Assembly (NCBI GenBank): GCA_012839705.1
Contig: DUMT01000098.1
Coordinates: forward strand, 1 to 33,730
Direction of reading: 5' to 3'
DNA length: 33,730 nucleotides
DNA from: Clostridiales bacterium
Lineage (GTDB): Bacteria > Bacillota > Clostridia > Oscillospirales > Acutalibacteraceae
Under the pieces are notes generated by a model, which searched no databases, was not told where the DNA came from, and saw nothing but the letters and a program-made list of their open reading frames with translations. Below are positions 19,002 through 28,232 of this stretch, one piece after another; within the stretch, counting starts at the first letter, position 1, and the number at the start of each line of letters is the position of its first letter. The translations under genes were made by a program, and so were the position numbers.

Positions 19002-20012
19002 ATGAGTTCCAAACGTAAAATATCCGTCCTGGGGGCGGGTGGATGGGGCACAGCCCTGGCAATTATGGCGCAAAACTACGGTAACAGCGTTTTGCTTTGG
19101 TCGCCCTTTGAAGAGGAGATTGCAAATATCAGAAGGTTCGGCGAAAACAAAAAGCTGCTGCCCGGAGTTCCGGTACCCCCCGGAATTGAACTAACCACCG
19201 AAATTTCCGATACTGCGGATTCAGACCTTGTTATTATGGCGGTACCGTCCTTTGCGATTAAAAGCACAGCCGAAAAACTGGCGCCTGTGCTGAAAAAAGG
19301 CACCCTTGTTGCAAATGCCGGCAAGGGATTGGAGCAGGGCACCCACCGCCGCTTTTCGCAGGTCATATCCGAGGCGTTGCCTGAAGCCAGGGTTGTGGCG
19401 CTTTCAGGCCCGTCCCATGCCGAGGAGGTTGCGCGGGGAGTCCCGACCTCGATAATCAGCGCATCGGAGGATGTGGAAGCCGCCGAAATGGTTCAGGATA
19501 TTCTGATGAACCCGAATTTCAGGATATATGTGAATACCGACGTTATTGGCGTGGAGCTTGGCGGCGCGCTGAAAAATGTTATCGCCCTTGCGGCGGGTAT
19601 TTGCGACGGGCTGGAAGTGGGTGACAACACCAAAGCAGCCCTTATGACCCGGGGCCTGGCGGAAATCGCAAGGCTTGGGATTAAGCTTGGTGCCAGGAGC
19701 GAGACCTTTGCAGGGCTTTCCGGTATGGGGGACTTGATTGTTACCTGCGGAAGCCTTCATTCAAGAAACCGCAGGGCAGGGATACTGATTGGGCAGGGGC
19801 ATTCCCCTGAGGAGGCTGTGCGTGTAGTGGGTACCGTGGAAGGATACCATGCAGCCCTGGCAGGTTATGAGCTTTCCAGGTCGGTGGGGGTTGAAATGCC
19901 CATAACCGAACAATGCTGGCAGGTATGCTACAACGGGCAGCCGGCGCGCAATGCCATCAAAGCCCTGATGGAAAGGCCCCGCCGCCACGAAACCGAACAG
20001 CCCTGGAAATAA
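19002..20012 (+). CDS. gpsA: Glycerol-3-phosphate dehydrogenase [NAD(P)+]
   Basis: This encodes 336 residues from ATG 19002 with AAAGGAGCG upstream. It reduces dihydroxyacetone phosphate to sn-glycerol-3-phosphate. Visible features are the N-terminal Rossmann loop G-A-G-G-W-G-T-A, L-S-G-P-S-H-A-E-E-V, the catalytic Lys in E-L-G-G-A-L-K-N-V, and G-L-S-G-M-G-D-L-I-V-T-C. Length and motif order are normal. It is the last gene of the der-plsY-gpsA unit, 29 bases after plsY, and is closed by a strong terminator. Confidence 0.98.
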   Translation: MSSKRKISVLGAGGWGTALAIMAQNYGNSVLLWSPFEEEIANIRRFGENKKLLPGVPVPPGIELTTEISDTADSDLVIMAVPSFAIKSTAEKLAPVLKKGTLVANAGKGLEQGTHRRFSQVISEALPEARVVALSGPSHAEEVARGVPTSIISASEDVEAAEMVQDILMNPNFRIYVNTDVIGVELGGALKNVIALAAGICDGLEVGDNTKAALMTRGLAEIARLGIKLGARSETFAGLSGMGDLIVTCGSLHSRNRRAGILIGQGHSPEEAVRVVGTVEGYHAALAGYELSRSVGVEMPITEQCWQVCYNGQPARNAIKALMERPRRHETEQPWK

Positions 20013-20020
20013 ATTTCATC

Positions 20021-20048
20021 CGAGGTGGCGGCAGCCGCCTCGTTTTTT
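20021..20048 (+). terminator. Terminator of der-plsY-gpsA
   Basis: A 9-base-pair stem CGAGGTGGC / GCCGCCTCG (one G-U pair, 4-base loop) is followed by TTTTTT. Confidence 0.92.
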
Positions 20049-20052
20049 ATAT

Positions 20053-20079
20053 AAAAAATCCACCCTTGACGGGTGGAAA
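20053..20079 (-). terminator. Minus-strand terminator
   Basis: A 6-base-pair stem CCACCC / GGGTGG is followed, on the minus strand, by an ATTTTTT tract. It faces the plus-strand gpsA terminator and may catch minus-strand transcripts coming from the small gene at 20258-20434. Confidence 0.7.
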
Positions 20080-20117
20080 ATCAGTATTCAGGGTTAAAAG
20101 GCGCACAAAACAACCTG

Positions 20118-20155
20118 GTGATATGAAACCCGAATTCTTAAAGGGCTCATATCAC
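20118..20155. repeat. Long inverted repeat in the gpsA-nifS gap
   Basis: GTGATATGA (20118-20126) and TCATATCAC (20147-20155) are perfect complements, with an inner CCC/GGG pair (20129-20131 with 20143-20145). The loop is AT-rich and no coding frame explains the conservation of both arms. It could be a protein-binding site or a structured RNA element; no second copy was seen in the window. Confidence 0.55.
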
Positions 20156-20196
20156 AATATAGCTTAGATTTGCATCCGGAAGATTGTAAACAAAAG

Positions 20197-20224
20197 TTTT
20201 CAAACAAACGGGCTATGTTATAAT
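20197..20224 (+). promoter_or_regulatory. Candidate extended -10 promoter pointing into the small gene's 3' end
   Basis: The elements are TTTTCA (20197-20202), a 16-base spacer and TATAAT (20219-20224) preceded by TG-T, an extended -10. The predicted RNA start is near 20231. Confidence 0.5.
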
Positions 20225-20230
20225 TGTATT

Positions 20231-20303
20231 AAGGGTGGCGAAAAAGGCGCGGGGAGGCTATGAAAGGGTAAAATCCTCCACCAGTGGGCGCTTTTTAATT
20301 TTT
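20231..20303 (+). ncRNA. Putative short antisense RNA ending in a bidirectional terminator
   Basis: From the predicted start at about 20231 to the T-tract at 20292-20303 lies a stretch of roughly 70 bases with no plus-strand coding frame of note. It folds as AAAAAG-g-CGC / GCG-CTTTTT (241-250 with 288-296, offset 20000) closed inside by GGAGG / CCTCC (253-257 with 275-279), followed by TTTTTAATTTTT. On the minus strand the same stem ends in CCTTTTT just after the stop of the 58-codon gene. The short plus-strand RNA would therefore overlap the 3' end of that mRNA by about 60 bases. The prediction rests on promoter and terminator pattern only. Confidence 0.4.
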
Positions 20304-20434
20304 AACATGTATTTTGGCTTGCGGATAGGGATTTTAAACAGGCGGCATGCCCAGTAAACCAGGGCAGCGCAGAAGGCCACCGCAGAAACCGCTTTAAGGA
20401 TAAAGCTGACAGCCTTAATAAGGAATTTGAACAA
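20258..20434 (-). CDS. Small cationic single-pass membrane protein (58 residues)
   Basis: The start is TTG 20434, immediately after an in-frame TAA, with AAAGGA about ten bases upstream. The 58-residue product begins M-F-K-F-L-I-K-A-V. It has one hydrophobic membrane segment (about residues 8-30, rich in Ala, Val and Phe) and then a strongly basic tail (R-K-P-K-Y and K-I-K-K-R-P) ending L-V-E-D-F-T-L-S. Upstream on the same strand is a near-consensus promoter (20508-20480), and a terminator overlaps the last codons. The complete set of signals argues that it is real, although I know no family. Topology by the positive-inside rule suggests a cytoplasmic C-terminus. Its size, membrane segment and basic tail, plus the convergent transcript across its 3' end, resemble type I toxin peptides such as TxpA. 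It could equally be an ordinary small membrane protein of this lineage. Confidence 0.65.
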   Translation of the reverse strand: MFKFLIKAVSFILKAVSAVAFCAALVYWACRLFKIPIRKPKYMLKIKKRPLVEDFTLS

Positions 20435-20479
20435 TTATAACACGTCCTTTCCTTTTTATTTTAAGTTGGATGCACCTAT

Positions 20480-20508
20480 ATTATACCTCATTTAACTTAA
20501 TTTGTCAC
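20480..20508 (-). promoter_or_regulatory. Near-consensus promoter of the 58-residue membrane protein gene
   Basis: On the minus strand the elements are GTGACA (20508-20503), a 17-base spacer and TATAAT (20485-20480). This is one mismatch from consensus. The RNA should start near 20473, giving a leader of about 40 bases. Confidence 0.75.
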
Positions 20509-20603
20509 TTTACTGAATAAAATGTTATTGATAAAATTGATTATGAATATTAACAATCGGGTGCATATTTGTTATTGTTTACAGTATTGACATAAATAGA
20601 AGG

Positions 20604-20632
20604 TTGTAACTGTGGAAATAATGTTATATAAT
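20604..20632 (+). promoter_or_regulatory. Promoter of the cysteine desulfurase-sortase-thiI cluster
   Basis: The elements are TTGTAA (20604-20609), a 17-base spacer and TATAAT (20627-20632). The RNA start is expected near 20639, just upstream of the ribosome binding site at 20652. It is divergent from the small-gene promoter at 20480-20508. Confidence 0.75.
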
Positions 20633-20666
20633 TAAAGTCTGGAATATAGTTTGGAGGTATTAGCCA

Positions 20667-21800
20667 TTGAGGCTTGTATATCTGGACAATGCCGCCACAA
20701 CCAGGGTTTGCCCCGAGGCGGCCGAAAAGGCCCTGGAGATGATGACTGTCCATTTCGGCAACCCTTCATCCCTTCATTCCCTGGGTACCCAGGCGGAGCA
20801 GATGGTTGAAGCGGCAAGGAAGCAGGTGTCCAAATTGTTTGGGTGCCGACCCGAAACGCTCTTTTTCACTTCGGGAGGCACCGAAGCCAACAACCTTGCG
20901 ATTTTCGGCGCAGCCGAGGCAAAGCGCCGGGTTGGCAGGCATGTGGTAAGCACGGCGGTGGAACATTCCTCCGTTCTGGAATCCTTTAACGAGCTGGAAC
21001 GGCAGGGCTTTGAGGTGACCCGGATTGTCCCCGACAAAAACGGGGTTATTACTCCCGAGCAGGTGGCAGAAGCCTGCCGCAGGGACACGGTGCTTGTCAG
21101 CATAATGTGTGTTAATAATGAAAACGGGATGCATTTTCCTATAGACAGGATAGCGGCAAGCGTCAGGCGTGTTGCCCCCCAGGCGTTAATCCACAGCGAC
21201 GCGGTCCAGGCTGCGGGCAAAATGCCCTTGCCTGCTGAAAAAATGGACATAGACCTGCTGTCGGCAAGCGCACATAAGCTCCATGGCCCGAAGGGCTGCG
21301 GGGTTCTATATATCAAAAAAGGCTGCCGGATTTTGCCGAGGGCGTTCGGCGGCGGGCATGAAAGGGGATTGCGGGCAGGCACCGAAGCAGTGCCCCTTAT
21401 CGCCGCATTTGGTGCGGCAGTGGAGGTTTTGCCGCGGATTGATGAGCAAAATAAACTGTACCAATGTTTACGCCAGCGGCTGGCGGACGGCATAAAAAGC
21501 CTTAAAGATGTGGTATGGCTCTCCCCTGAAAGTGCGGTGCCGTATATCGTCAATATCTCGGTGCCGGGGATAAGGAGCGAAACCATGCTTCACTTCCTTG
21601 CCCAGAATGAGGTTTATGTTTCAAGCGGTTCCGCCTGCTCCAAAGGCAAAAAAAGCCATGTACTTACCGCTTTGGGGTTGCCGGACAGGCTGGTTGATTC
21701 GGCATTGCGGATAAGTTTCACCCATACAAATACAATTGAGGATGTCGACCGGTTCCTTGAGGTTCTCGAAGAAGGGCTGAAAGTTCTGGTACGGCGTTAA
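20667..21800 (+). CDS. Cysteine desulfurase (NifS/IscS family, probable ThiI sulfur donor)
   Basis: This encodes 377 residues from TTG 20667, with GGAGG nine bases upstream. It is a PLP-dependent aminotransferase-fold enzyme that takes sulfur from L-cysteine and passes it as a persulfide. Landmarks are Y-L-D-N-A-A-T-T at the start, F-T-S-G-G-T-E-A-N-N, H-S-D-A-V-Q-A-A-G-K, the PLP lysine K204 in S-A-H-K-L-H-G-P-K-G, R-A-G-T-E, and the persulfide-forming C324 in S-S-G-S-A-C-S. Association with thiI two genes downstream matches the NifZ-ThiI arrangement of Firmicutes, where a dedicated desulfurase feeds tRNA 4-thiouridine synthesis. An IscU/SufU gene is absent nearby, which supports that role over Fe-S assembly. 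The next gene begins 26 bases later. Confidence 0.95.
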   Translation: MRLVYLDNAATTRVCPEAAEKALEMMTVHFGNPSSLHSLGTQAEQMVEAARKQVSKLFGCRPETLFFTSGGTEANNLAIFGAAEAKRRVGRHVVSTAVEHSSVLESFNELERQGFEVTRIVPDKNGVITPEQVAEACRRDTVLVSIMCVNNENGMHFPIDRIAASVRRVAPQALIHSDAVQAAGKMPLPAEKMDIDLLSASAHKLHGPKGCGVLYIKKGCRILPRAFGGGHERGLRAGTEAVPLIAAFGAAVEVLPRIDEQNKLYQCLRQRLADGIKSLKDVVWLSPESAVPYIVNISVPGIRSETMLHFLAQNEVYVSSGSACSKGKKSHVLTALGLPDRLVDSALRISFTHTNTIEDVDRFLEVLEEGLKVLVRR

Positions 21801-21826: not shown

Positions 21827-23527
21827 ATGTCAGCCAATAATGAGAAAAAAGATTTATTGAATGTCAGGCTAACTAACCTGGATGGCGACACTCCCGAAAC
21901 TCTGCGGGTAGTGGCGCAGGCGCGGGCAGCTCTTGGAAGGTACAGCCACCCGGAGGTGTCCGACGAGATTTCGGTTGACAGCGGGAAAAAAAGTATAGAA
22001 AATAATACAAATACTGATGATTTTGACACCAAGGTGTTGGAAATACCTGTGGTTTTAAAGCAGGAAAGCCCGCAGGTTCGGGAACAGCCGCAGCAGGATG
22101 CCGCCGAAAACCCTGAAAACTCTCCCAGGGGATTTAAAAAGTTCTTAAACAGGATGGCAGCTGTACTTGGCGGCGTGATTCCCCAAAAAGGCGACCCGCC
22201 CCTTGAAATACTGCGCAAGTGTATTTTCAACATCGCCCTGATTACCCTTATAGTGTCGCTTGCTTATATCATTAATGATATGATTATCATACCTTTTAAA
22301 AACCACCAGACTTATGACAGCCTGGCGTCTTTGTATGACCCGGACAACCCGGCGGATCCGCCTGCGGATTTTCCGGAATACAAATACCCTGAAGGTATTA
22401 TGGACTCATTTAAGGCGCTGTATGCCATGAACGACCAAATCCGCGGATGGCTCAAGTACAAAGATTCAAACGGCAAGTGGCTCAACATCAATTATCCGGT
22501 AATGTATTCTGGGGATAACGAGTATTACCTGACCCACGATTTCCAGAAAGCCCGCAACAAGAATGGTGCGCTGTTCTTTGACGAGAGAAACAACCTGGAA
22601 ACCCCCAACGATACCAACCGGGTGCTGATAATTTACGGCCACAACATGGCAAGCGGGCAGATGCTATCACCCCTTAACAAGATGCTAAACAACCTGAACT
22701 ATGTGCGTTCCGCGCCGGTGATTAACCTTGACACCCTTTTTGACCGCAGGGAATACAAGGTGTTTGCTGTTATGCTGCTGAGCACCAGGAAAGAAGACGG
22801 GCCCTATTTCAATTATCTTCGCACATCCTTTGCAGATGACGAGGATTTTATGGACTTTGTCGCCAATATCAGGGCAAGGTCGATTTACGATTTCAACAGT
22901 GTGGATATAAGGCCCGATGACCAGCTATTGATTCTTTCCACCTGCACAACCACCAGCGGGGCAAAATTCCCCGAAGGCCGGTGCGTTGTTGTTGCCCGCA
23001 AGGTTCGGGATGGAGAAAGTGTTGCTATACGCCCGTCCGACATTGTCAAGAATGATGACGTTATTATGCCTTATGCCTGGTATGTTAACCAGAAGCTTGA
23101 ACCGCACAGATATTACACCGACAGCAACTATACCATCCCCGGCGCTGTCTACAGTACAACAAGAACCATTTATAACCCCACAACACCCACAACATATACC
23201 GGGTATCCTACAAGCCCGGTAGTCACAAGGCCTACCGGCTCAACATTCACTACGCCCGAAGGCAGCTCCACCTTGCCAACCGGAAGCGGTACCGATACCG
23301 GTACGGCTACAGGTACAGGCACAGGTACAGGTACAGGCGTGCCGGGTACCACAACAGGAGAGCCTGATACATCGGGAACCGATTCAACCGAAACTACTAC
23401 CCAAAATGGTACCGAAACAACTTCACCCAATCAGGATGATGAAACCACAACTCCGCCAACTGATGATAACACCACTGCCGAACAGAATGAAACCGGGCAG
23501 ACAGAACCGGAATCTGGCGGAGAATAA
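21827..23527 (+). CDS. Class B sortase with long Thr-rich tail
   Basis: This encodes 566 residues from ATG 21827 with an AAAGGCAGGGA site. Residues 1-128 are a polar, probably disordered cytoplasmic region. One membrane segment lies at about 132-152, and the class B sortase domain spans about 185-400. The catalytic triad is intact: H272 in Y-G-H-N-M, C373 in L-S-T-C-T and R385 in E-G-R-C-V-V-V. Sortases cut sorting signals and join proteins to peptidoglycan; no substrate with a sorting motif is in the window. The last ~150 residues are a Thr/Gly/Pro/Ser-rich tail, partly coded by a hexanucleotide repeat, which is unusual for sortases. The domain is collinear with the degenerate sortase fold in the gene at 24801. 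It lies in a run of closely spaced genes between the cysteine desulfurase and thiI. Confidence 0.93.
   Translation: MSANNEKKDLLNVRLTNLDGDTPETLRVVAQARAALGRYSHPEVSDEISVDSGKKSIENNTNTDDFDTKVLEIPVVLKQESPQVREQPQQDAAENPENSPRGFKKFLNRMAAVLGGVIPQKGDPPLEILRKCIFNIALITLIVSLAYIINDMIIIPFKNHQTYDSLASLYDPDNPADPPADFPEYKYPEGIMDSFKALYAMNDQIRGWLKYKDSNGKWLNINYPVMYSGDNEYYLTHDFQKARNKNGALFFDERNNLETPNDTNRVLIIYGHNMASGQMLSPLNKMLNNLNYVRSAPVINLDTLFDRREYKVFAVMLLSTRKEDGPYFNYLRTSFADDEDFMDFVANIRARSIYDFNSVDIRPDDQLLILSTCTTTSGAKFPEGRCVVVARKVRDGESVAIRPSDIVKNDDVIMPYAWYVNQKLEPHRYYTDSNYTIPGAVYSTTRTIYNPTTPTTYTGYPTSPVVTRPTGSTFTTPEGSSTLPTGSGTDTGTATGTGTGTGTGVPGTTTGEPDTSGTDSTETTTQNGTETTSPNQDDETTTPPTDDNTTAEQNETGQTEPESGGE
23309..23338 (+). 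repeat. Hexanucleotide tandem repeat in the sortase tail
   Basis: Five in-frame copies of ACAGGT or ACAGGC encode a Thr-Gly repeat within the low-complexity C-terminal tail of the sortase. Such tracts can change copy number by slippage without breaking the frame. Confidence 0.8.
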
Positions 23528-23565: not shown

Positions 23566-24756
23566 GTGTACTCTGATACTACCACATCTCCGCAGGACAT
23601 AATACTTATCAAGGCGGGAGAACTGGTCTTAAAAGGGCTTAACAAGGGTACTTTTGAGGATATACTGCTGAAAAATTTGCGCCGAAGCCTTGCCGGGGTT
23701 GGAGAATACCGGTTCAGCAAGGCCCAGTCCACAATTTATGTAAAGCCTGTAGACAGCGGCTTTGATATGGACGAGGCTTTAAAGCGTGTTTCCAGGGTAT
23801 TCGGCATCGCCGCCTATTCTGTCGCCCGGACGGCGGAAAAGAACATGGATGATATACTGCGCAATACCGTAGATTTTATGAGGGATAAGCTGTTAAACGC
23901 CAAAACCTTTAAAGTGGAAGCCAAACGGAGCGACAAATCCTTTGAGCTTAAATCCCCGGAAATCTGCGCCGCCGCTGGCAGGCATATATTAAGGCAGTTC
24001 CCCCACCTGAAGGTTGACGTCCACAATCCCGACGTTTTGATTGTAATCGAAATCAGGGATTTCGGAGCTTATATACATTCCCGCCAGCTTGACGGGGCGG
24101 GCGGTATGCCCGTAGGATCAGGAGGCCATGCGGCGCTGCTCATTTCAGGGGGCATTGATTCCCCCGTTGCGGGATATATGATGGCAAAACGGGGAATATC
24201 CCTGACTGGCATACACTTTGTTTCCCCGCCGTATACCAGCGAACGGGCCGAGCTTAAAGTAATCTCCCTTATGGAGCAGCTTTCCCGGTATTCAGGGAAT
24301 ATGGATTTGTACCTTGTCCCCTTTACAAAGATTCAGATGGAGATAAGCCGCCTGTGCCCTGAGGATTTGTTCACGATTATAATGCGCCGGTTTATGATGA
24401 GGATTTCCACAATCCTTGCCGAAAAGGCAGGCTGCGGCGCGCTGATTACAGGGGAAAGCCTGGGGCAGGTGGCAAGCCAGACTTTGCCGGCTATCGCCTG
24501 CACGGACGAGGCTGCCGGGATGCCGGTGCTCCGCCCGCTTATAGGAATGGATAAAGATGAAATTATTGCTATTTCAAGAAAAATAGAAACCTTTGAGATT
24601 TCAATCCAGCCGTATCAGGATTGCTGCACAGTTTTCACTCCAAAGCATCCGCGCACAAGGCCCAAGCTTGAAAAGGTCCTGGAAGCGGAAGCAAAGCTGA
24701 ACGCCGAAGAGCTTATCCGTGAGGCTGTGGAAGGCGTCCGGAAGAAATCGATTTGA
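23566..24756 (+). CDS. thiI: tRNA 4-thiouridine synthetase ThiI
   Basis: This encodes 396 residues. GTG 23566 is used: the ATG at 23556 and the TTG at 23562 are in another frame that stops at once. The site GGAAAGG lies 11 bases upstream. An N-terminal ferredoxin-like region and THUMP domain (about 60-170) bind tRNA. The PP-loop ATPase domain has the S194-G-G-I-D-S signature. The C-terminal conserved D-C-C-T-V-F-x-P-K-H-P segment follows, and there is no rhodanese domain, as in Firmicutes. It adenylates U8 of tRNA and inserts sulfur donated by a cysteine desulfurase, probably the one at 20667. Its stop lies upstream of the next gene's preferred start at 24801, though an in-frame ATG of that gene overlaps it (TGATG at 24754). 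Confidence 0.95.
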   Translation: MYSDTTTSPQDIILIKAGELVLKGLNKGTFEDILLKNLRRSLAGVGEYRFSKAQSTIYVKPVDSGFDMDEALKRVSRVFGIAAYSVARTAEKNMDDILRNTVDFMRDKLLNAKTFKVEAKRSDKSFELKSPEICAAAGRHILRQFPHLKVDVHNPDVLIVIEIRDFGAYIHSRQLDGAGGMPVGSGGHAALLISGGIDSPVAGYMMAKRGISLTGIHFVSPPYTSERAELKVISLMEQLSRYSGNMDLYLVPFTKIQMEISRLCPEDLFTIIMRRFMMRISTILAEKAGCGALITGESLGQVASQTLPAIACTDEAAGMPVLRPLIGMDKDEIIAISRKIETFEISIQPYQDCCTVFTPKHPRTRPKLEKVLEAEAKLNAEELIREAVEGVRKKSI

Positions 24757-24800
24757 TGCGGTTTATGCGGGCAAAACCTGTAGAAAGGGGCGGTTCTGTT

Positions 24801-27800
24801 ATGAACGCTGAGATAATTTCAGTAAACGCGAACAGCTTAAGCAGTCAGTTCATCAAACATGAACTGGCCTCCTTTGGTATTGCTCTTTCCCACCAGACCC
24901 TGGCAGAAGGGGAGCTTTCCCGCCTGCGGGAATCAATAAGGCTTGCCCTTAGCAGGAACGACTTGGTGGCGATTATCTACGAGCCAGGAGATATTCAGAA
25001 CAGCCCTGTATTTCAGGCGGTGGCGGATGTTTTGGGCGCACCGCTGGAGCTTAACAGCGACTGCCTTGAGCGTGTTAGGGAATTCTTCAAGAACAACAAC
25101 GAGGAGCTCCTTGAAGAAAGCGAAAAAATCGCAATGCTGCCCCGGGGCTGCACGGTTTTCCCAAACGACCACGGATATGCACCGGGCTGCGCGGTTTCGC
25201 GCTATGGGCAGCATATACTTGTTCTTCCTGATAATCTGAGCGAAATTATGCCCATGTTCAGCGACTATGTGGCACCATTTCTCACAATCCTCACGGACGG
25301 CACCATAGTAACCCGTACCGTGGGAGTGTTTGGGCTGTCCGAAGCTGTCCTGACACAGCGCCTGGCGGACCTGATGTCGGAGGCCAATCCTGCTGTTAGC
25401 CTGTATGCCAAGGACGGGGAGGCTATTTTGAGGGTAATTGCCCGGGCGGCGGATAGAAACGCCGCTTATGCCCTGACCGACCCTGTGGTTGAGGAAATCC
25501 GCAAGCGCCTTGGCGTCAATGTGTATGGCGTTGATGTAGGCAGCCTTCAGAAGGCTGTTGTAGCATTGCTTCTGGATAAAAACATGAAGATAGCCACTGC
25601 TGAATCCTGCACCGCCGGCATGCTTTCAAGCAGGCTGACGGAGGTTACAGGGGTTTCAGCGGTTTTTGAGTGCGGCATTTCCGCATATTCGCCCGAGATA
25701 AAGCACAAGGTGTTGGGCGTGCCGATGGAAATGATTGAAAAATTCGGTACCGTAAGCCCCGAGGTGGCGGGAGCCATGGCTACTGGCGCCCGGCGTGTCG
25801 GTAATGCCTCATTAGGGGTGGGCATTACCGGAGTAGCGGGGCCCGATACATCCGAGGGCAAGCCTGTGGGCACGGTATATATCGCCCTCGCTGACGAAAA
25901 AAGGGTATGGGTGAAAAAAATCGAGGCAGAATCCATTGAAGGCGATTCGAACAGGGAAACAATACGGAAACTTGCCACCTCCCACGCTCTGGATTTGGTG
26001 CGCAGGTATCTGGAAGCGCTGCCTACGGTAATGGCGGGGGGCGAGGTTATCGAGCCTGCCGGTTCAGGTTCTCCGTCCATCCCCCAAAGCAGCGTCAGCC
26101 CCGAAAAGCCCAAACTGTGGCGCCGCCTGCTGCCCTGGAAGGGCGACGCCAGGAAGGATTTTGTCAAAAAATCTTCTGTTTTAGCGTCATTTGTATTTTT
26201 GATGTTCGCCCTTTCCTTTGTTGTGTATTCGAGGGTAATGCAGCCGCTGCAAAACCGGAAGATGTTCAAAAACCTGGCGGAATTATATGGCTACAGCGCC
26301 AACAGCGTTGCTATGGAAAATATAAGCAGCTATCCTCAGGGGATGATTCCGCAGTTTTACGCTTTGTATTCGAGGAACCCGGATGTACGGGGCTGGGTTA
26401 GAATCGACGGTACGAACATCAATTACCCTGTAATGATGGATGACGGCACCGGATTTTATAAAAACCATAATTTCGACGGCGAGCCGTCGAGTTACGGTGT
26501 CCCGTATTTTGATAAAGGCACTGCGCTGTATTCCCCAAGTTCGGTAAACCGCACACTGGTAATTTACGGCAATAACACCCGGGATGGCCAGATGTTTTCC
26601 GACCTTACAAATTACTATAACAATGTTTCTTTCCTTTTGGGGCATCCGATTATTGATATGAACACAATTTACAGCACCGGGAAATGGAAGGTTTTCTCGG
26701 TGATGGTGCTCACTGACCCTGAGACAAACCCAGATGCTTTTGACTATACCCGCTCGGTATTTGTGGACGAGTCGGATTTCCTCAGTTTTGCAGGGCAGCT
26801 TACTGCCCGTTCCCTGTATTCAATCCCGCCAGGGCAGGTGGATGTCCGGGAAGGGGATTCGATTCTGCTGCTTTCCACCAATTTTGAAAATACCGCCGGG
26901 TATCAGGGCGCAAGGCTGGTTGTAGCCGCGAGGAAGATTAGGGAAGGGGAACTGCCGATATCCGATTTGTCTGGCACGGTTTACAACTCCACTCCCGTCA
27001 TGCCTTCGGAATGGACTGGGACCACCGGCTCTGCCAAGCTCCGGGGGACAAAATCTGAGAAAGCTACGACAGCGAAAGATACCGCCGGTACATCCCCGAA
27101 CAGTTCATATTCGGAGGAATCTGACGTGACTCAGCCGGCAATTACTGACGAGGATATGGGCAGCTCAACCCACAACAATGGCACAAGAGCCACTGCAACC
27201 ACGAGCGCTGCCACAAAAACCGACAGCACAACCCGAAATACTTCTGGGTCCGGCGATACAACATCCTCAACAACCACCACAACCACGACTACTGCTCCGC
27301 CGTTAAACCAGGAACCGGTGATTTATGCCGGGACGGTACTGGAAAGCGAATTTTTGAAAAACTGCAAGGTACAAAGCGGCAGTGAATTAATCCAGCCTAA
27401 GAACAAATCAGAGCTGCAGCTCCTGCTTGCCAGGGTCGTTAAAACCGAGCTTGGCTCGGAGCGGACGATGGAAAACAACCTGGCTGCCCAAAAAGCCCAG
27501 GCGGTTGCGTCGTATACATACATTTTGTATGAAAACATGGTTAATAAGAGGGTATATTCACAATCTTTAAAGCCAATTAATTTAAATGACAGACTGGATA
27601 AAAAGATATATGACGCTGTTGGAGAGGTGGCGGGGATAAAGATTTTATCCGGTAACCTTCCGATTTATGCGGCTTATTGCGCCTCAACCCCGGGCGTAAC
27701 ATCCAGCAACAACGAAGTGTATGAAAAGGGCCAAAACCTTGAATACCTGAAAAGCGTTGTTAGCGAATATGAGAATGATTCCACAATGCATGATGTAGCC

Positions 27801-28232
27801 CAGTGGAAAACCACCTTCAAAATCAGCATGGTGGATTTGAAATCGAAGCTTGAATCATATCTGAAAAAAACAATCAAATTTGATTCCGGACAAGCCCCTT
27901 TTTATGTTCGCAGTTACGACAATAATGGACAATATGTGACTCGGATAAACGCTTATTATGAAGATGGAAGCTCCAAAGTCTACATAACAGGCCACCAGAT
28001 GAGGATGGCGGTGGGCTCCGCATCCCTTCGCTCCCACGCTTTCAGGGTGGTTTCGTCAACCGAATCCGAGCTGACCTTAAGCGTTACCGGATATGGTCAC
28101 GGGTTGGGGATGAGCCAGTGGGGCGCCGCCAACTATGCCCGTTATGCGAGATGGGATTTCAAACGGATTTTGTGCCATTATTACCGCATTACAACTTCAT
28201 CTAATCACCGCCTTGTGGCACCGGTCTGGTAA
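24801..28232 (+). CDS. CinA - membrane segment - degenerate sortase B - SpoIID/LytB fusion protein
   Basis: This encodes 1143 residues. ATG 24801 is preferred because AAAGGGG precedes it and CinA proteins begin M-x-A-E-I-I; an in-frame ATG at 24756 overlapping thiI is an alternative. Residues 1-165 are a MoCF-like CinA N-domain whose usual G-T-E-L-L and G-G-L-G-P-T motifs are lost. Residues about 245-405 are the CinA amidohydrolase (NMN deamidase) domain with E-S-C-T-A-G (Ser 269) and V-A-G-P-D. A Lys/Arg-rich stretch leads into one membrane segment (458-478). Residues about 485-715 are a class B sortase fold with His replaced by N591 (Y-G-N-N-T) and Cys by N694 (L-S-T-N), while R705 remains. 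A Thr/Ser linker runs to about 845. The rest is SpoIID/LytB, a lytic-transglycosylase fold, with E883 in V-K-T-E-L-G and G-H-G-L-G-M-S-Q-W-G. Topology would put CinA inside and the other domains outside. The functional coupling is unknown. Confidence 0.88.
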   Translation: MNAEIISVNANSLSSQFIKHELASFGIALSHQTLAEGELSRLRESIRLALSRNDLVAIIYEPGDIQNSPVFQAVADVLGAPLELNSDCLERVREFFKNNNEELLEESEKIAMLPRGCTVFPNDHGYAPGCAVSRYGQHILVLPDNLSEIMPMFSDYVAPFLTILTDGTIVTRTVGVFGLSEAVLTQRLADLMSEANPAVSLYAKDGEAILRVIARAADRNAAYALTDPVVEEIRKRLGVNVYGVDVGSLQKAVVALLLDKNMKIATAESCTAGMLSSRLTEVTGVSAVFECGISAYSPEIKHKVLGVPMEMIEKFGTVSPEVAGAMATGARRVGNASLGVGITGVAGPDTSEGKPVGTVYIALADEKRVWVKKIEAESIEGDSNRETIRKLATSHALDLVRRYLEALPTVMAGGEVIEPAGSGSPSIPQSSVSPEKPKLWRRLLPWKGDARKDFVKKSSVLASFVFLMFALSFVVYSRVMQPLQNRKMFKNLAELYGYSANSVAMENISSYPQGMIPQFYALYSRNPDVRGWVRIDGTNINYPVMMDDGTGFYKNHNFDGEPSSYGVPYFDKGTALYSPSSVNRTLVIYGNNTRDGQMFSDLTNYYNNVSFLLGHPIIDMNTIYSTGKWKVFSVMVLTDPETNPDAFDYTRSVFVDESDFLSFAGQLTARSLYSIPPGQVDVREGDSILLLSTNFENTAGYQGARLVVAARKIREGELPISDLSGTVYNSTPVMPSEWTGTTGSAKLRGTKSEKATTAKDTAGTSPNSSYSEESDVTQPAITDEDMGSSTHNNGTRATATTSAATKTDSTTRNTSGSGDTTSSTTTTTTTTAPPLNQEPVIYAGTVLESEFLKNCKVQSGSELIQPKNKSELQLLLARVVKTELGSERTMENNLAAQKAQAVASYTYILYENMVNKRVYSQSLKPINLNDRLDKKIYDAVGEVAGIKILSGNLPIYAAYCASTPGVTSSNNEVYEKGQNLEYLKSVVSEYENDSTMHDVAQWKTTFKISMVDLKSKLESYLKKTIKFDSGQAPFYVRSYDNNGQYVTRINAYYEDGSSKVYITGHQMRMAVGSASLRSHAFRVVSSTESELTLSVTGYGHGLGMSQWGAANYARYARWDFKRILCHYYRITTSSNHRLVAPVW

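Follow-up and report, generated by a model that had tools for sequence, protein, structure and literature searches.

Among described short peptides, type I toxins form a class that includes TxpA and BsrG. Unannotated conserved small membrane proteins of microbiomes are collected in the GMSC catalogue and in the Sberro families cited within it, as described in the parts of the catalogue paper drawn on here (PMC11364881). This work concerns a 58-aa frame in a 33,730-nucleotide stretch of DNA (contig DUMT01000098.1, Acutalibacteraceae), referred to as the window. Comparison with relatives indicates that the frame is very probably a real, conserved protein-coding gene, and we describe its family, its locus and the readings of its role.

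Results

A short frame between gpsA and a cysteine desulfurase gene

An earlier note, made from the sequence alone, had placed a membrane protein with complete expression signals in the gap between gpsA and a desulfurase gene. The minus-strand frame with its TTG start lies inside this gap as claimed (Table 1), and most of the proposed signals were recovered. The promoter has a single mismatch (11/12) at 17-base spacing, and a ribosome-binding site (AAAGGAAAGGA) that is conserved in relatives precedes the TTG by 10 bases. The proposed membrane segment corresponds to a single hydrophobic stretch (KD17 = 2.14); the structure model gives a predicted helix at residues 2-32, followed by a low-confidence tail. 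The small gene is predicted to be transcribed from its own promoter, divergently from a desulfurase - class B sortase - thiI operon.

The terminator of the earlier note is not supported at the stop codon: our scan finds none there, the hairpin spanning the codon has z = -1.17 and is equaled in 26 of 200 shuffles, and the nearest good minus-strand terminator lies further downstream. The basic tail holds for the window member (+7) but not as a family trait, since the charge ranges from +7 to -4.

Table 1. Features of the window and of compared loci
Feature	Position	Strand	Remarks
gpsA	19002-20012		convergent to the small gene; the gap 20013-20666 separates gpsA from the desulfurase gene
Likely transcript end of the small gene	20059..20077	-	7-bp hairpin, then T6; about 180 bases past the stop codon
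Single-copy intergenic stretch	20090-20260		171 bases, downstream of the small gene
Inverted repeat	20118-20158		GTGATATGA...TCATATCAC, inner CCC/GGG; between gpsA and the small gene
Convergent promoter-like site	20197-20224	+	TTTTCA-16-TATAAT, preceded by TG
Small gene	20258..20434	-	58-aa single-helix membrane microprotein by comparison and helix prediction; TTG start; C-terminal P-L-V-E-D-F
Ribosome-binding site and start region	20435..20455	-	holds the 13-mer AAAGGACGTGTTA
Small-gene promoter	20480..20508	-	GTGACA-17-TATAAT; start codon 45 bases further on
Promoter region of the divergent desulfurase operon	20568..20657	+	conserved, 78-91% over 56-90 bases, E ≤ 2e-9
Cysteine desulfurase (NifS/IscS type)	20667..21800	+	class V aminotransferase; divergent neighbor and synteny anchor
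Class B sortase	21827..23527	+	between desulfurase and thiI
thiI	23566..24756	+	
Single 1159-aa frame	24753-28232	+	CinA (~16-421), class B sortase domain (470-724), SpoIID/LytB (893-1148)
62-aa TPATGE protein, G011	L107:8288-8476	-	
62-aa TPATGE protein, G001	L108:803-991	+	
126-148 aa secreted-protein family	L109, L110, L111, L112, L137, L218, L219, L220		
V-S/T-C-S-C small proteins	L230-L240, L242, L243, L249, L250		

The intergenic stretch downstream of the small gene occurs once in the genome, and an inverted repeat lies within it. Rfam gave zero matches in the window at gathering threshold; at a relaxed E-value, the region 20000-20700 returned eukaryotic or viral families only, which were discarded as implausible.

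To estimate chance expectation, the gap was shuffled 2000 times by dinucleotides. Of the shuffled sequences, 920 contained a frame of 58 aa or more, 86 contained one that also had a hydrophobic stretch of this strength, and 46 contained a promoter scoring at least 11/12. Taken alone, the 58-aa observation is only mildly unusual, so that the frame by itself counts for little and the argument rests on its conservation.

Members within and outside the genus

The desulfurase gene was located in all 12 genomes of the genus and its upstream side was read for divergent frames. A single-helix small protein with a tail ending in or near E-D-F was found in seven of them (the window, G004, G005, G006, G007, G008 and G010). 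Six of the small genes sit on the upstream side of this desulfurase gene and point away from it; the seventh (G007) lies on a different contig, which ends about 100 bases from the gene as judged from the locus length. The window member ends in RPLVEDFTLS, those of G006 and G005 in RHPSVEDFQI and KHPLVEDFDI, and those of G004, G008 and G010 in PMSEDFED or PMSEDFEE. In the latter three genomes, the small gene follows a divergent gene whose product, about 142-148 aa long, has a signal peptide and a C-terminal helix.

The expected conservation of the frame among close relatives thus stands for six other genomes of the genus, and extends to other genera, but fails for the closest relative by desulfurase (G009, 79%), where gpsA adjoins the desulfurase gene across a gap of about 226 bases without such a frame. 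G001, G002, G003 and G011 carry other frames at the site, and no convincing member was found there or elsewhere in them. Several of these four genomes are incomplete.

Single-sequence searches in 40 relatives were weak: a match with E 0.18 (contig C71 of G006) is the syntenic relative. The best other match (C61 of G006, E 0.001) was dropped because it overlaps a long same-strand frame, which we take to be secretion-ATPase-like. A pattern scan of the genome contigs with a three-member alignment returned 35 stretches, none of which was confirmed.

To reach beyond the genus, 80 desulfurase loci on named contigs were scanned for short frames that are hydrophobic and end in acidic and aromatic residues. 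Seven frames were retrieved, five of them at the syntenic divergent site (L135, which is G005; L136, which is G006; L137; L139; L140); the other two, elsewhere in L194, were taken as chance. Members at the same locus in other genera are those of G079 (whose contig is L137), L139, G664 (whose peptide is identical to that of L140), G197 and G184, and a frame with E-E-F in G063 is a probable member. Profile searches of 300 and 394 genomes gave mostly matches limited to the helix part, which were left out of the member count. G273 carries the secreted-protein gene with no E-D-F gene after it.

Across the family, the proteins measure 36-58 aa and combine a short N-terminus, one predicted membrane helix and a short flexible E-D-F tail. 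Relatives that share both a one-helix anchor and a fixed tail motif at the same spot argue for a real gene and a new family.

Homology and selection

E-D-F is invariant in all ten aligned members. When each of the ten was removed in turn and a profile from the rest was run on 5298 frames, in every test the held-out member came top or was outranked solely by the window's own frame, which was then part of the profile. The G006 sequence used here began at an upstream start and was six residues longer at its N-terminus. The window frame itself, when held out, scored E 0.033. With a profile of G005 and G006 only, it is the best match in its whole genome (E 0.024; next 0.28). Both E-values are modest, yet the match falls at the sole syntenic place.

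Synonymous changes are in excess in the four closest pairs, with pN/pS of 0.15 (G004-G008), 0.23 (G008-G010), 0.39 (G004-G010) and 0.40 (G005-G006), and Fisher p from 3e-8 to 7e-4. The window member, which aligns to its relatives at 19-40%, gives pN/pS of 0.61-0.83 against other members, with synonymous sites near saturation (Fisher p 0.006 with G005 and 0.002 with G006). No synonymous excess was seen for G005-G010 (pN/pS 0.98). A ribosome-binding site was read by eye in all ten members. The window and G006 share the 13-mer before the start codon, in support of the TTG start, and G005 has an 11/12 promoter of its own (TTTACA-17-TATAAT), 46 bases ahead of its start codon.

A functionless frame that arose by chance would suit the shuffled gaps, about half of which offer this length, and the absence in G009; the conservation, across other genomes, of the frame with its motif, its start region and its position, together with the synonymous excess in close pairs, makes it very improbable. 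The same conservation and excess support the earlier suggestion of a small membrane protein gene that is easily missed. A leader peptide controlling a downstream gene of the same transcript would likewise be a short frame with its own promoter, but on that side the window holds just the terminator and then the convergent gpsA, and a conserved C-terminal motif is unexpected for a leader; we consider this extremely improbable.

Known families and a look-alike with a V-S-C-S-C tail

Nine members scanned against Pfam and NCBIfam reached no curated cut-off (sub-threshold matches only, E 0.039 or worse), a profile search of the PDB gave no match below E 0.89, and no paper on the small gene or its locus was apparent in a literature search. 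An LPxTG-like P-x-T-G before the helix, as in sortase-anchored proteins, occurs in none of the ten aligned members, and the V-S-C-S-C tail motif that marks the NYVSCSC family is absent from all ten.

Single-helix small proteins of 55-88 aa, most with a V-S/T-C-S-C tail, are widespread (Table 1) and reached no curated family. The neighbors of the NYVSCSC-type proteins are presumably spoVAE-, gpr- and sigG-like genes. The small gene could be a distant branch of these 'MKK-LKI-G-(A-rich helix)-K...NYVSCSC' proteins near spore-like genes, and hence a sporulation-linked microprotein: the family profile picks NYVSCSC proteins at E 1e-7 to 1e-4, and profile-profile comparison gives a probability of 97% over 40 columns. 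The match is, however, limited to the helix part, a region in which composition misleads; the tails are different, and a desulfurase gene was found at none of the 16 such loci compared. We regard this branch as unlikely, and the NYVSCSC proteins were not counted as the same family because the helix part alone matches.

The desulfurase-sortase-thiI locus

The promoter region of the desulfurase operon is conserved to an unusually high degree in seven genomes of the genus; its GTTTACA...TGTAAC arms look like an operator. Wherever the members' loci could be read, the desulfurase gene is followed by that of a class B sortase. In the set of 80 desulfurase loci, a sortase follows in six, and five of these six have the small gene; the sixth (L138) has another frame upstream instead, presumably transposase-like. 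The small gene is present in 0 of the 74 loci with no sortase match after the desulfurase gene, nine of which have fewer than 900 upstream bases and are uninformative.

A wider set outside the genus comprised 20 stretches from the top of the sortase-similarity list, with those at contig edges mostly left out. These sortase-desulfurase loci contained two E-D-F genes, one probable one and one other small membrane frame; 15 had no small gene and one was unreadable. Frames were filtered for a hydrophobic stretch combined with the tail motif, P-x-T-G or closeness to the desulfurase gene, so that a very degenerate member could be missed in these 20 loci. The small gene is thus found at the sortase arrangement, which is insufficient for its presence, and since the loci are related by shared ancestry, the association with the sortase is not independent evidence.

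Other surface-type proteins share the neighborhood. A family of 126-148 aa secreted proteins with a G-Y-W-region motif and a C-terminal helix, mostly divergent from the desulfurase gene, has no convincing Pfam match. A 62-aa protein, consisting of little more than signal peptide, TPATGE motif and helix, is encoded at this divergent site in G011 and G001, and its G011 version satisfies the LPXTG anchor model. Beyond thiI, the window holds a single frame combining CinA, class B sortase and SpoIID/LytB domains. Second sortase matches inside frames of 1069-1254 aa in G001, G004, G007, G010 and G079 suggest that this fusion is conserved, and no paper on it was apparent in a literature search.

A hydrophobic peptide with a convergent promoter-like site

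The size, single helix and basic tail of the window member also recall type I toxins, short hydrophobic peptides that an antisense RNA keeps silent. A promoter-like site aimed at the 3' end of the small gene (Table 1) could yield a short antisense RNA from the opposite strand. G005 has no comparable convergent promoter and the G006 site scores just 9/12. In G004, G008, G010, G079 and G197, the gene lies about 46-96 bases after the secreted-protein gene, in the same direction. E-D-F is conserved while tail charge is not, and a profile search finds the gene in single copy in the window's genome. On this evidence we consider a toxin quite improbable. The toxin, the leader peptide and the chance frame all fit less well than an accessory membrane microprotein.

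Discussion

Beyond the coding status of the frame, we tentatively propose that this membrane microprotein is an accessory to a surface-protein locus and acts through its tail. With E-D-F constant while the tail charge varies, the protein is most simply read as a membrane anchor that displays a short docking motif, and the neighbors (the sortase, the secreted proteins with C-terminal helices and the 62-aa protein of G011 and G001) point to the cell surface. The helix would anchor the microprotein in the membrane, and the tail would dock on a partner such as the sortase or a surface protein from the same divergent unit, making the microprotein an accessory subunit of a cell-surface module at the desulfurase-sortase locus. 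Flanking charges favor a tail-inside orientation for the window member and tail-outside for the shortest members. More doubtful still is the narrower possibility that these fast-evolving microproteins act as dedicated membrane accessories to the class B sortases encoded inside desulfurase-thiI operons of this bacterial family, which would couple surface-protein anchoring to the locus.

Statistics alone cannot support this short frame; comparison makes it a gene family open to testing, with an unchanging tail motif in a fixed neighborhood, and surface proteins and a sortase offer a first functional lead for a nameless microprotein.

Compared with known systems, the NYVSCSC proteins, which come from the same bacterial family, resemble the E-D-F family in their Lys-rich start, L-K-I-x-G helix and acidic tail, whereas they differ in their Cys motif and in their locus. 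Type I toxins and the window member are alike in size, helix and basic tail; unlike these toxins, the E-D-F family shows no clearly conserved antisense arrangement among the window, G005 and G006, and has a constant acidic E-D-F tail and an operon position in relatives. The sequences indicate that the E-D-F microproteins probably form a new family of small proteins, in other respects an ordinary one, its nearest catalogued families being compared by description. As far as the catalogue paper describes them, the microbiome families of GMSC and Sberro share with the E-D-F family a length below 60 aa, one helix, the lack of a domain and a tendency to be missed by length cut-offs; set beside these catalogues by description, the E-D-F family is distinguished by the locus, motif and synonymous constraint given here.
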